A DNA stretch of 34,336 nt from a virus: IMG/VR virus record IMGVR_UViG_3300028800_000655, positions 1 through 34,336 of that record. One strand, given 5' to 3'. Positions within the stretch are counted from its first letter, which is position 1. Every line of letters begins with the position of its first letter. The notes below the pieces were generated by a model. That model saw only the letters and a list, made by a program, of their open reading frames with translations, ran no database searches and had not been told where the DNA came from. This document shows positions 11,753 to 33,397 of the stretch, in pieces. The translations under genes were made by a program, and so were the position numbers.

Positions 11753-12223
11753 TCAGCCTCTGCAACCTGTTCTTAACGACCATAAAATACCATCTTCCTC
11801 TGAGCCATAAAAATCAGGCACATACTGAATTGGCTTAAAATTATTCTTACTTAATAATTTTATAACTGCTGTGTTATCTGTCCTAGTATGTGCTTGTATT
11901 ACAGTAGCTATATCAAAAGCATAGCTTAACCTATCATCAAGAAGTAGCTGTCCCAAGCCTTGTTTTTGATACTCTGGCAACACAGCACTTGAGTCTAAAT
12001 ACGCTATTTGAGCGTGACTTGACCAGCACATAACAGCAGCGGCGATAGGTCTGTTCTCCAACTCATACCAAACCACCAACCAAGACTTATGTTTGTCGAA
12101 GAACGCTGTCCATTCTTCTTCCTGCATTTTATCTGTATCAAAGCATATAGCATCTATAGTCGCTAACATCTTAGGCAAACTTGAATCGTATTCTGTAGCT
12201 GTATGCTTAATTACATTCATCAT
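11753..12223 (-). CDS. GNAT-fold N-acetyltransferase
   Basis: The 156-residue protein shows the GNAT core: a strand with WLVVWYELENRPIAAAVMCW, then AQIAYLDSSAVLPEYQKQGLGQLLLDDRLSYAF. Within this, the Q-x-x-G-x-G acetyl-CoA pyrophosphate loop (QKQGLG, about residues 86-91) and the preceding V-x-P strand are intact. The C-terminal strands end with a NNFKPIQYVPDFYG motif usual in GNATs. The acceptor is unknown. The gene overlaps the ATP-grasp gene by four bases (ATGA), so the two are translationally coupled and likely act on the same substrate. It is followed by the tail spike, which makes virion or peptide modification an attractive but unproven role. Confidence 0.82.
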   Translation of the reverse strand: MMNVIKHTATEYDSSLPKMLATIDAICFDTDKMQEEEWTAFFDKHKSWLVVWYELENRPIAAAVMCWSSHAQIAYLDSSAVLPEYQKQGLGQLLLDDRLSYAFDIATVIQAHTRTDNTAVIKLLSKNNFKPIQYVPDFYGSEEDGILWSLRTGCRG

Positions 12224-30493: not shown

Positions 30494-32344
30494 CTATGTG
30501 TATAATCCCGCGTAAGTTTGTCGAATTGTATTAACATATCGTTGCTTGCGACGGAGAATTTCAAACTCAATATCTTCTGTGTTTGTATCAAAGTCCCATA
30601 CTTGTGGGCCATAGCCAAGTGTATCAAGTACGTCGATTAGTTTTCCCGTAGGGTATGATTCAAATTCTTCAATAAACTCATCCATACCTACAGTATTGAT
30701 CCAGAACTCACCGCGACTAAATATCGGCCCAAGAGAATCAATCCTCATTTTCTTGGCATTCGCGGTCTTGGGAGTTTTGAGTTCTTTTATTTCCAGTGCC
30801 GCATATCTCGAATCATCCCGTGCTTTTTCCTTGATTATGTAATCCATGTGATACTTGAGATATTTTTGGGCTGCAATGGTTTCCATGTAGATACAGTCAA
30901 GTTTCCACACATTGACTGCGAGATCGAGCATAACTCCAATAAATTCATCCGTACCACAGGCTTTTGCCCATACATCGAGAAGATATACTCTACGAGGATT
31001 TTCTGCGACACCTGTGACAGTAATAGCATGGCGGCATCTTCCATCGTTCCCTGAGTGATTAGGGTCTACAATCATGTAGCGTTTTAGATTACGAGGACTT
31101 ACATCTTCCTCTACGTCACCTGCTAATACTTTATGCTTGATAAGAATCTTAGTACGAGTACGAGTTTTACCTGTGGTATCAAATGGTACTACATCTTGAT
31201 ATGTGAAGCTCTGATCTTTCACAAATTCAAATCTACGAAGATCACGAAGTTGGAACTTAACCTCAGCAGGATTTACCGGAGTGTTGCGATATTGACAAGA
31301 GAATATATAATTCCCTAATCTTTTACGGTATCTTGCAAGTTTCTCGATACTGTACTTTTCGGGAAATATAGGTATTCCGAACGGATGTAATGAGCAACAT
31401 CCGCCCAACGCTGAGTGCGTGCTAAAATTAAAGTACGTCTCCTCTTTCCTGAGATACGAATTAAGGTCTTTATAACTCCATCTATTACCGACCACGATTT
31501 CATCATTATCCCTCCCCGCATCATCACCCTCATCAGGATCGAAAGCACCCACCAAATACTTATGATATTCTATGGTTTTATTCATAGTAATATCAGATTC
31601 ATATGCTTCTCTGCCTACTAAATCATCCTGTATAACTAAATTATAATGCCTAGATTGTAGCGCACCACCTACTCCGATAAAATCATAGGTTCCTTCGCCC
31701 TGTGCGGAGCCAGTTTTATTCGAGCGCATCTGGCAGAAAGATTCTTTATTCTGAGTGCAACTTCCATCTGGCAGTATCTCAGGAAATAAATACTTAAACA
31801 AATCATTATTCTGATAGTGCCCTTGAAGTCTAACACCGAGCTTTGAGGCATTTGTAATAACTTCGGATACGAGGAGTATACGGATATCCTGATTATGTGC
31901 ATATCTCATCCACTGAATCCAGCGGTCGGTATAGCCAAGTGCACGCATGTACATTTCATCTTGTGCTGAGAAAGGAAGCGCGCGCCAAATGCTATAGCAT
32001 TCTGTATAAACTGTGGACTTGTAATGGCCACGAGGGATTTCGATTACTTCTTTTACCCCATCTTTTTCAACTACCTTGCACATCTGGAAATGTAAGTTCT
32101 GATCAGGATTCGGATTCTGTTGAAAACGATTCTTTCCAAGTACGCGGGTCGCAAAATAAAACAAGGAACCTAATGAGTTGAGCCGGTGTATAGTTCGGAG
32201 AGTATTTTCGTCACTATGAATCGGTGGAATAATACGCCAGCTACTTGTTACGCTTCTTGGTAAGTATAGACCGCCTGTCTCATTAAATTCATACTCCAGC
32301 GATTTCTCTACTATTTCTTGAAGATCGCCGGTAGTATATGACAT
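30494..32344 (-). CDS. terL: terminase large subunit (packaging ATPase/nuclease)
   Basis: The start is ATG 32344, behind GGGAGAACAGC; the frame is open 54 codons further upstream, but only through the structured intergenic region. The 616-residue protein carries Walker A at 104-111 (PRGHYKST), Walker B at 236-241 (LVIQDD) and nuclease residues Asp427 (MIVDPN), Glu488 (CIYMETI) and Asp571/Asp574 (LIDVLDTLG). These form the RNase H-like metal site. It docks on the portal, translocates DNA into the prohead with ATP and cuts concatemers. TerS lies upstream, separated by a 60-aa gene and an unusually long 218-bp gap with RNA-like structure. Confidence 0.88.
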   Translation of the reverse strand: MSYTTGDLQEIVEKSLEYEFNETGGLYLPRSVTSSWRIIPPIHSDENTLRTIHRLNSLGSLFYFATRVLGKNRFQQNPNPDQNLHFQMCKVVEKDGVKEVIEIPRGHYKSTVYTECYSIWRALPFSAQDEMYMRALGYTDRWIQWMRYAHNQDIRILLVSEVITNASKLGVRLQGHYQNNDLFKYLFPEILPDGSCTQNKESFCQMRSNKTGSAQGEGTYDFIGVGGALQSRHYNLVIQDDLVGREAYESDITMNKTIEYHKYLVGAFDPDEGDDAGRDNDEIVVGNRWSYKDLNSYLRKEETYFNFSTHSALGGCCSLHPFGIPIFPEKYSIEKLARYRKRLGNYIFSCQYRNTPVNPAEVKFQLRDLRRFEFVKDQSFTYQDVVPFDTTGKTRTRTKILIKHKVLAGDVEEDVSPRNLKRYMIVDPNHSGNDGRCRHAITVTGVAENPRRVYLLDVWAKACGTDEFIGVMLDLAVNVWKLDCIYMETIAAQKYLKYHMDYIIKEKARDDSRYAALEIKELKTPKTANAKKMRIDSLGPIFSRGEFWINTVGMDEFIEEFESYPTGKLIDVLDTLGYGPQVWDFDTNTEDIEFEILRRKQRYVNTIRQTYAGLYT

Positions 32345-32375
32345 GCTGTTCTCCCGTAGCAAATGGGGGCTCCGC

Positions 32376-32555
32376 CCCCAAACCCCCGGGACAGCTTTTG
32401 AGAAACTTGCCCGTGCCCAAGAGGTATTTACATTAGGAGCTAGCCTGTGCTTTTCAGCAGCTCTTGGTTTACGGGCACCTACAAAGTGAAGCTGTCCAGG
32501 AAACACTCAGTAGGGTTTGTGGTTATAGTTCTACTTACTTCGCACAGGCTTAGCT
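32376..32555 (-). ncRNA. candidate structured RNA between TerS and TerL genes
   Basis: The 218-bp gap before TerL folds, in the transcribed (minus) sense, into nested helices. P0 pairs 32513-32519 with 32379-32385; P1 pairs 32489-32497 with 32389-32397 (9 bp); P2 pairs 32471-32477 with 32408-32414; P3 pairs 32461-32467 with 32417-32423. All are perfect. The apical part contains a GCU-GAAA-AGC hairpin (32449-32458). A further 9-bp match, 32542-32550 with 32442-32450, would form a pseudoknot with the 5' end. A GC hairpin (32366-32380, GGGGGC/GCCCCC in either sense) follows near the TerL ribosome binding site. It may be a packaging RNA, ribozyme-like or regulatory leader; no known class is recognised. 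Confidence 0.55.
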
Positions 32556-32562
32556 AACTTGA

Positions 32563-32745
32563 TTAGTAAGGGGATTTCTTCCTGTCCGCTTTGCCCCGCC
32601 CGCTGGTTCCCAGATCAACTGGAGTTATTTTACGCGGTGGCGGCGCGGTTTGCTTGGAGCTTAGATCAACTTTCTGAATCTTTTTAGGTGCAGGCTCGGT
32701 CTGCTTTACGCCGAGGCTTACTGGTTTTTCAGTCATGGTTGCCAT
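32563..32745 (-). CDS. 60-aa basic Pro/Lys-rich protein with an internal repeat
   Basis: ATG 32745 follows AGGAGTCCTAAC. The protein contains two copies of a short unit, PAPKKIQKVDLSSK (about residues 18-31) and PPPRKITPVDLGTS (about 35-48), and a basic end with GRGKADRKKSP. It appears disordered and may bind nucleic acid or a partner protein through the K-I-x-x-V-D-L motif. Its place between TerS and TerL, in the same transcript, suggests a packaging or head-assembly accessory. No family is recognised. Confidence 0.55.
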   Translation of the reverse strand: MATMTEKPVSLGVKQTEPAPKKIQKVDLSSKQTAPPPRKITPVDLGTSGRGKADRKKSPY

Positions 32746-32755
32746 GTTAGGACTC

Positions 32756-33397
32756 CTAGTTCATTGCGGATTTGTCAACAGCCACGGCGTCAAGTAACGC
32801 GTCAGCATCAACTTGGCTTAAGTCGAAGGCCCGCGATTCAGGTACGCCGCCGGACTGAGTAAAGGCGTTGGGTGTTACTTCACATTCGAGTGTGCTAATG
32901 GGCGGGGCACCCATCATTAGAGCCATGAGATTACTGGCGACTAATGGATCAACTTGCAGATTTGGAGTCTTCTCAAAGGATACGCTGGTCTTAGAAACCT
33001 TAGCCAAGTTTCCTTCACGATCCAAAATCTCAGTAGCGGCCTTGAATTGCAGCTGTGGGCCACTAAGTCCGAGCACCGCACTCTTAATCGCGTTCAGTGC
33101 TGAAGGCACCATGCTCCTAATCTCCTGCCGCATGTTATCTACATTCTCTCGTAGTTGCGCATCGTACTGTGACAGGACTCCGGAGCTAAGCTCCATAACC
33201 TTAGCATGGAATTCGGGAAGCTGCCTAATCATCACAATAGTCTGCTTATGACAATTCAGCATATTAGCAATCTGCTCATTAGTAAACCCGGACGGATCAA
33301 GCGTAAGCCGAGCTATCGCCTCCAGCTTCCGCACACGCTTATACGTCATCCTAAATCCTGGATGAAGTGCGCTCGGTTTACCTGGGCCTGCTGACAT
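32756..33397 (-). CDS. terS: terminase small subunit-like protein
   Basis: The 213-residue product starts at ATG 33397, one base after the upstream stop. It has a helix-turn-helix at about 38-60 (FTNEQIANMLNCHKQTIVMIRQ) and a following helical region (about 63-135) with MRQEIRSMVPSALNAIKSAVLG, then QLQFKAATEILDREGNLAK. The acidic C-terminus would contact TerL. The order HTH, oligomerisation helices, 'AATEILDREG' and acidic tail is typical of phage small terminases that recognise pac/cos DNA. A downstream ATG (33349) could be an alternative start but lacks a better ribosome binding site. Confidence 0.75.
   Translation of the reverse strand: MSAGPGKPSALHPGFRMTYKRVRKLEAIARLTLDPSGFTNEQIANMLNCHKQTIVMIRQLPEFHAKVMELSSGVLSQYDAQLRENVDNMRQEIRSMVPSALNAIKSAVLGLSGPQLQFKAATEILDREGNLAKVSKTSVSFEKTPNLQVDPLVASNLMALMMGAPPISTLECEVTPNAFTQSGGVPESRAFDLSQVDADALLDAVAVDKSAMN

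Follow-up and report, generated by a model that had tools for sequence, protein, structure and literature searches.

A doubly pseudoknotted RNA element, apparently new, at late-gene junctions of uncultured soil phages

What fills the 218 bp that separate a 60-aa open reading frame (ORF) from the terminase large subunit gene (terL) in the genome of an uncultured phage, and does it act as RNA? The window, that is, the whole 34,336-nt stretch of IMG/VR record IMGVR_UViG_3300028800_000655 analysed here, carries this gap at 32345-32562, as an initial annotation of the same DNA had described it, with the flanking genes all on the minus strand. Related loci were gathered by TerL searches of IMG/VR at identities down to ~50%, and members were defined by structural search combined with hand annotation. 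Judged from this comparison, the gap almost certainly encodes a real, conserved RNA structure in the sense strand. The features of the locus are as follows.

32756-33397, minus strand: terS (PHROGs terminase small subunit, E 1.4e-5)
32563-32745, minus strand: upstream ORF, 60 aa, with 12 nt between its stop codon and P1a
32389-32550, minus strand: RNA element core, P1a to P2b, 162 nt; architecture common to 15 other lineages (L097 without P1a, which lies beyond the contig end)
32554-32557, minus strand: possible P1 extension TTAG, with partner CTAA at 32433-32436 (by eye)
32542-32550, minus strand: P1a AGCCTGTGC, 5' strand of the outer pseudoknot; covaries with P1b at 15 loci
32504-32514, minus strand: Pxa CCTACTGAGTG, from a helix that the initial annotation overlooked (comparison of loci)
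32498-32503, minus strand: L1 TTTCCT, pyrimidine-rich loop between Pxa and P2a (loop list across loci)
32489-32497, minus strand: P2a GGACAGCTT, within the Px loop (comparison of loci)
32478-32488, minus strand: Pxb CACTTTGTAGG, immediately 3' of P2a (comparison of loci)
32471-32477, minus strand: P3a TGCCCGT (comparison of loci)
32461-32467, minus strand: P4a CCAAGAG (hand annotation)
32442-32450, minus strand: P1b GCACAGGCT, apical-loop strand of P1; shares positions with the 3' arm of a GAAA hairpin proposed by the initial annotation
32417-32423, minus strand: P4b CTCTTGG (hand annotation)
32408-32414, minus strand: P3b ACGGGCA (hand annotation)
32398-32407, minus strand: L3 loop AGTTTCTCAA; A-rich toward P2b in most relatives
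32389-32397, minus strand: P2b AAGCTGTCC (comparison of loci)
32364-32380, minus strand: GC hairpin TGGGGGCGGAGCCCCCA, directly 3' of P2b, with no T run
30494-32344, minus strand: terL (PHROGs terminase large subunit, E 5.5e-52); starts 44 nt after P2b

The 60-aa ORF has no match in Pfam or PHROGs. Elsewhere in the window, a 156-aa ORF (11753-12223, minus strand) resembles, by eye, a GNAT acetyltransferase (LDSSAVLPEYQKQGLGQLLLDDRL).

Across the members the helices are ordered P1a-Pxa-P2a-Pxb-P3a-(P4)-P1b-(P4)-P3b-P2b, with L1 preceding P2a, L3 preceding P2b and the GC hairpin usually next. P2a, the 5' strand of the 9-bp helix P2, is enclosed by Px, which pairs over 11 positions with one T-T mismatch. 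This strand comes after L1 inside the Px loop and abuts Pxb without a linker; Px and P2 thus form an H-type pseudoknot, in which one strand of the second helix lies inside the loop of the first (15 loci), and the two helices are stacked end to end. P3 begins where Pxb ends, and P3 and P4 make up a hairpin carried by the H-type pseudoknot. P1 constitutes a second pseudoknot of 9-16 bp, in which the apical part of this hairpin pairs with the 5' flank; equivalents of its possible extension are visible by eye in L001 (GTTAG/CTAAC) and L033 (GTTGG/CCAAC). The core measures 131-180 nt in the 12 members measured, and the P4 pairing is altered among relatives (CCTGAAG/CTTCAGG, CCAGAAG/CTTCTGG, CCTAAC/GTTAGG). 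Loops listed for 15 loci have a pyrimidine-rich L1 and an A-rich L3 in most members, which suggests that base triples may form there. At least 11 of 15 loci have a GC hairpin 3' of the element; only two hairpins as strong as that of the window occur on the same strand across the whole window.

The initial annotation had seen four nested perfect helices in the transcribed (minus) sense, and three of these are retained here as P2 (9 bp), P3 (7 bp) and P4 (7 bp). The outermost 7-bp helix, apparently CAAACCC/GGGTTTG, is dropped, having no counterpart in relatives and being equalled in its own pairing by 842 of 5000 permutations. The 9-bp match from the apex back to the 5' flank is present as P1. 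The sequence of the proposed GAAA hairpin, TGCT-GAAA-AGCA, is there as well; its GCA also belongs to the 3' strand of the 9-bp match, so that the hairpin and the full match are mutually exclusive, and in L001 and L033 there is insufficient space for the hairpin. The idea of a pseudoknotted RNA is strongly supported by comparison, with the count corrected to two pseudoknots once the overlooked Px is included.

Plain pseudoknot-free folding places the gap only marginally ahead of shuffled sequences (z -1.5 in sense, -1.6 in antisense), and energy alone therefore gives no support for a structured RNA. The suggestion of order beyond chance fares better when the four-helix architecture, which was defined using relatives, is scored: the window gap reaches 87.8, against a maximum of 77.2 among 250 dinucleotide shuffles. 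With the same type of shuffling applied to each locus, and with the architecture defined with those same 15 loci in view, none of 250 shuffles reaches the sense score in 14 of the 15, the remaining locus (L057) being reached by 8 of 250.

The decisive evidence for the predicted structure is the comparison among loci rather than folding energy. Divergent members were not alignable by MAFFT, and alignment-free tests were therefore used. In a strand-swap test, the best helix between two strand regions was scored for each locus with its own and with swapped partners (15 loci, 20,000 permutations), and for each of the helices the observed sum exceeded every permuted one. This sum was 441.6 for P1 (permutation maximum 349.6), the partner being searched for freely within a 75-nt flank, and 277.6 for P3 (maximum 229.4). 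It was 319.0 for P2 (maximum 248.6) and 226.8 for Px (maximum 196.4), in two tests that favour own pairs because the ends of Px and P2b were set by hand. A second control pairing failed the test, 4573 of 5000 permutations being equally good. Compensatory change in homologous gaps, which the initial annotation had proposed as a check, was thus found: the pairing of P1, P2, Px and P3 is kept across 15 loci despite sequence change. For example, the P1 strands differ by lineage, reading AGCCTGTGC/GCACAGGCT in the window, TGCGGTACACAG/CTGTGTACCGCA in L001, GCGAGGTCTACTT/AAGTAGACCTCGC in L007 and CCTAACTAGTAA/TTACTAGTTAGG in L008; L034, L038 and L039 have a common P1 sequence because P1a there overlaps conserved terS codons. 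The predicted fold is kept while the sequence turns over almost completely among members. Interior non-Watson-Crick positions, some of them common by descent, comprise 10 G-U, 1 A-C and 2 A-A in the sense strand; the excess of G-U over A-C favours an RNA on the terL strand and supports, without proving, this reading of the strand.

The carriers are one clade of uncultured soil phages known only from metagenomes. The element lies in the terS-terL gap in 14 lineages (the window, L001, L032 (= L007), L033, L034 (= L008), L038, L039, L041, L045, L053, L055, L057, L060 and L063), upstream of the portal gene, whose identity is supported by PHROGs, in L051, and upstream of terS in L097, where P1a falls off the contig end. 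It is always codirectional with the late genes and always intercistronic. In the TerL tree, a clade of 22 rows (support 100/100) has the element in 16; in the other nine rows it was not recognised. Six of the 22 lineages are without it, four of them also without an obvious substitute; the flanks examined for L054, L059, L062 and L104 carry no element. Five contigs of 36-47 kb each hold one copy, in the terS-terL gap. Used genome-wide, the structural descriptor gave an excess of false matches, chiefly in low-complexity contigs, and members are claimed at homologous sites only. Two DNA pattern scans of IMG/VR gave matches outside the known loci that all lay in coding sequence and did not have the architecture. 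Contig scans with two TerL alignments found no relative among genome contigs, and hence no host.

Close relatives that retain TerS, TerL and portal, among them one phage identical over TerL, do not have the element, which appears to be accessory rather than essential. In L030, an HNH gene stands where L032 has the RNA, both flanks of the exchange being 99.7% identical between the two phages; no sequence-like copy of the element was found in two HNH-bearing contigs. Mutual exclusion of HNH gene and RNA was considered and rejected, as L038 and L041 carry the RNA followed by an HNH gene. The small HNH genes before terL are of two sorts, one in place of the RNA and the other 3' of it (L004:2597-3004, L005 and L030 before terL; L038:4685-4996; L041:4663-4998).

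Several other sequences were noted in these phages. A T/G-rich tract, TTGTTGTTGCTT...TTTTGTTGTTGTTTGTTTTT, lies between the RNA and terL in two distant phages (L033:1386-1430 and L045:2940-2985). In L004, a non-coding stretch ~1.5 kb upstream of terL contains, by eye, a fragment resembling a tRNA 3' end (TTCGAATCCGCTGTCCGGGGACCACC). A sister clade that does not carry the RNA has a second structured candidate (L213:9464-9693, L217:10664-11139, L220:9382-9608), with nested stems, a possible pseudoknot and a 20-bp outer stem whose inner part changes in matched pairs (GGACTCAG/CTGAGTCC, GGACGGAG/CTCCGTCC, GGCACCTAG/CTAGGTGCC); it lies directly upstream of an ORF reading MATNAVVPEQTG..., MADVNVMEQ.... 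A further conserved region (L213:5490-5916, with the same region in L074, and L103:633-1108) has inverted arms whose differences between the two phages are matched (TGTGCTAGGCTCA/TGAGCCTAGCACA, TGTGTTAGTGGTTT/AAACCACTAGCACA).

Clues to function come from the junctions. P1a overlaps the stop or last codons of terS in L034, L038, L039 and L041, and begins 1-15 nt after the upstream stop in the window, L001, L033, L032, L053, L055, L057 and L060. In junctions without the RNA, the terS stop and terL start usually overlap or abut (TAATG in L048-L052, L054, L062 and L068), and HNH phages show an overlap between the HNH stop and the terL ATG. On the basis of these positions we favour, tentatively and with somewhat less than even confidence, an accessory intercistronic mRNA element that would act in cis, with its outer pseudoknot at the upstream stop codon. 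As the neighbouring gene varies, the function would be tied to the junction and not to terL. Ribosomes terminating at the upstream stop would open P1, and the knot would close once they are gone. The closed knot could then form a stable barrier between the upstream and downstream cistrons, substitute for the stop-start translational coupling of relatives without the RNA, and protect the mRNA or aid its processing, so that the output of packaging proteins would be set by the knot. Coupling to ribosomes cannot be universal, since L045, L051 and L063 have leaders of ~95-220 nt between upstream stop and P1a.

A trans-acting RNA would give an identical comparative pattern. Such a small RNA, a 'moron' RNA processed from the late transcript and acting, in counter-defence for instance, on a target of the host or the phage, is possible, if rather improbable. 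Three different junctions with differing neighbours, the patchy presence, the size of ~130-180 nt and the GC hairpin, which could be its 3' end, all fit; on the other hand, neither a convincing promoter of its own nor a U-tailed terminator was found in the window, no unpaired seed common to all members was seen and, among the few full contigs searched, a packaging-module gene always adjoins. We are likewise doubtful about a broader proposal, that the element is more than a spacer and represents a new class of functional phage RNA, either a self-cleaving ribozyme of a new type or a non-coding RNA with a non-obligatory part in packaging or host takeover beside an ordinary TerS/TerL motor.

The specific case of a novel self-cleaving ribozyme, with cleavage of the late transcript between genes, is distinctly unlikely, even though the fold is compact and doubly pseudoknotted, the site intercistronic and the helix order, in our own reading, like that of the glmS ribozyme. 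By eye, the 15 divergent members showed no common set of conserved unpaired bases, such as a shared active site would require. A cmscan search of the window and 11 relatives against Rfam 15 returned no match at gathering thresholds, pRNA and self-cleaving ribozyme families included, which agrees with the earlier impression that the sequence has no link to phi29 pRNA or a known ribozyme. When the window gap was also screened at E up to 10, a hairpin ribozyme match appeared in antisense (E 7.7); it is a chance match, the substrate GUC being missing and the region pairing as an uninterrupted helix.

A selfish or mobile RNA element whose insertion at gene junctions might be aided by HNH endonucleases has a slim chance of being correct. 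The three positions, the exchange for an HNH gene between nearly identical phages and the HNH genes 3' of the RNA in L038 and L041 are what it would predict; against it stand the single copy per full contig examined, the small size and two sorts of the HNH proteins, and the long persistence of the element in the TerL tree.

The likeness to a packaging RNA drawn by the initial annotation does not hold up well. A phi29 pRNA-like partner of TerS, TerL or portal would explain why every position found adjoins one of these genes; however, the search was centred on terL, and this location is partly a matter of ascertainment. The Rfam search was empty, the element is not confined to the terS-terL gap, and close relatives have the same packaging genes without it. 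This reading is therefore very improbable. An obligate packaging part is unlikely because the element is patchy, its neighbours change and it is exchanged for an HNH gene; a non-obligatory packaging role is doubtful but conceivable. Least credible, and already disfavoured, is that the complementarity reflects a DNA feature such as a binding or packaging site, or chance: gaps near terminase genes often contain packaging sites and plain folding energy does not stand out on either strand, but the pseudoknotted pairings covary at 15 loci and G-U exceeds A-C in the sense strand.

Whatever its role, the element appears to be a real, conserved and new class of doubly pseudoknotted RNA outside Rfam. 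A blastn search of INPHARED with three members found nothing meaningful, and the open-access literature, by title and abstract, contains no clear description of the element; with almost no fixed sequence, it would be missed by sequence searches. Its patchiness, changes of neighbour and clean replacement by an HNH gene between nearly identical phages provide natural pairs with and without the RNA, through which its role can be tested. Action at the upstream stop codon would make it an example of pseudoknot-based separation of late-operon cistrons, and cleavage or action in trans would establish a new class of functional RNA.

Among known systems, the phi29 pRNA is reported to be essential and forms rings through intermolecular loop pairing (PMC6765105). 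Both are phage-encoded structured RNAs tied to packaging genes. In contrast to pRNA, the present element has a long pairing that is apparently intramolecular, and very close relatives do without it; because the element is lost between near-identical phages, essentiality of the pRNA type does not fit. GOLLD, ROOL and OLE too are orphan structured RNAs of unclear role, some of them phage-borne; they are several times longer, and the present element has no Rfam match. These ornate RNAs are the subject of PMC12286853. The glmS ribozyme has a core double pseudoknot (P2-2.1-2.2) and a further P3/P3.1 pseudoknot (PMC11602151). In our own reading, the two share multiple pseudoknots, a 5' strand that pairs into a downstream hairpin and a loop that pairs with the 3' end, whereas here there is no Rfam match, no conserved core seen and no glmS gene, and P1 is long and fully variable. 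H-type pseudoknots with a pyrimidine L1 and an A-rich L3 are a general class, and the present element resembles them in the absence of a linker between P2a and Pxb, in its pyrimidine-rich L1 and, in most members, in its A-rich L3. It differs in bearing within the third loop a hairpin whose apex forms a second long pseudoknot with the 5' flank.
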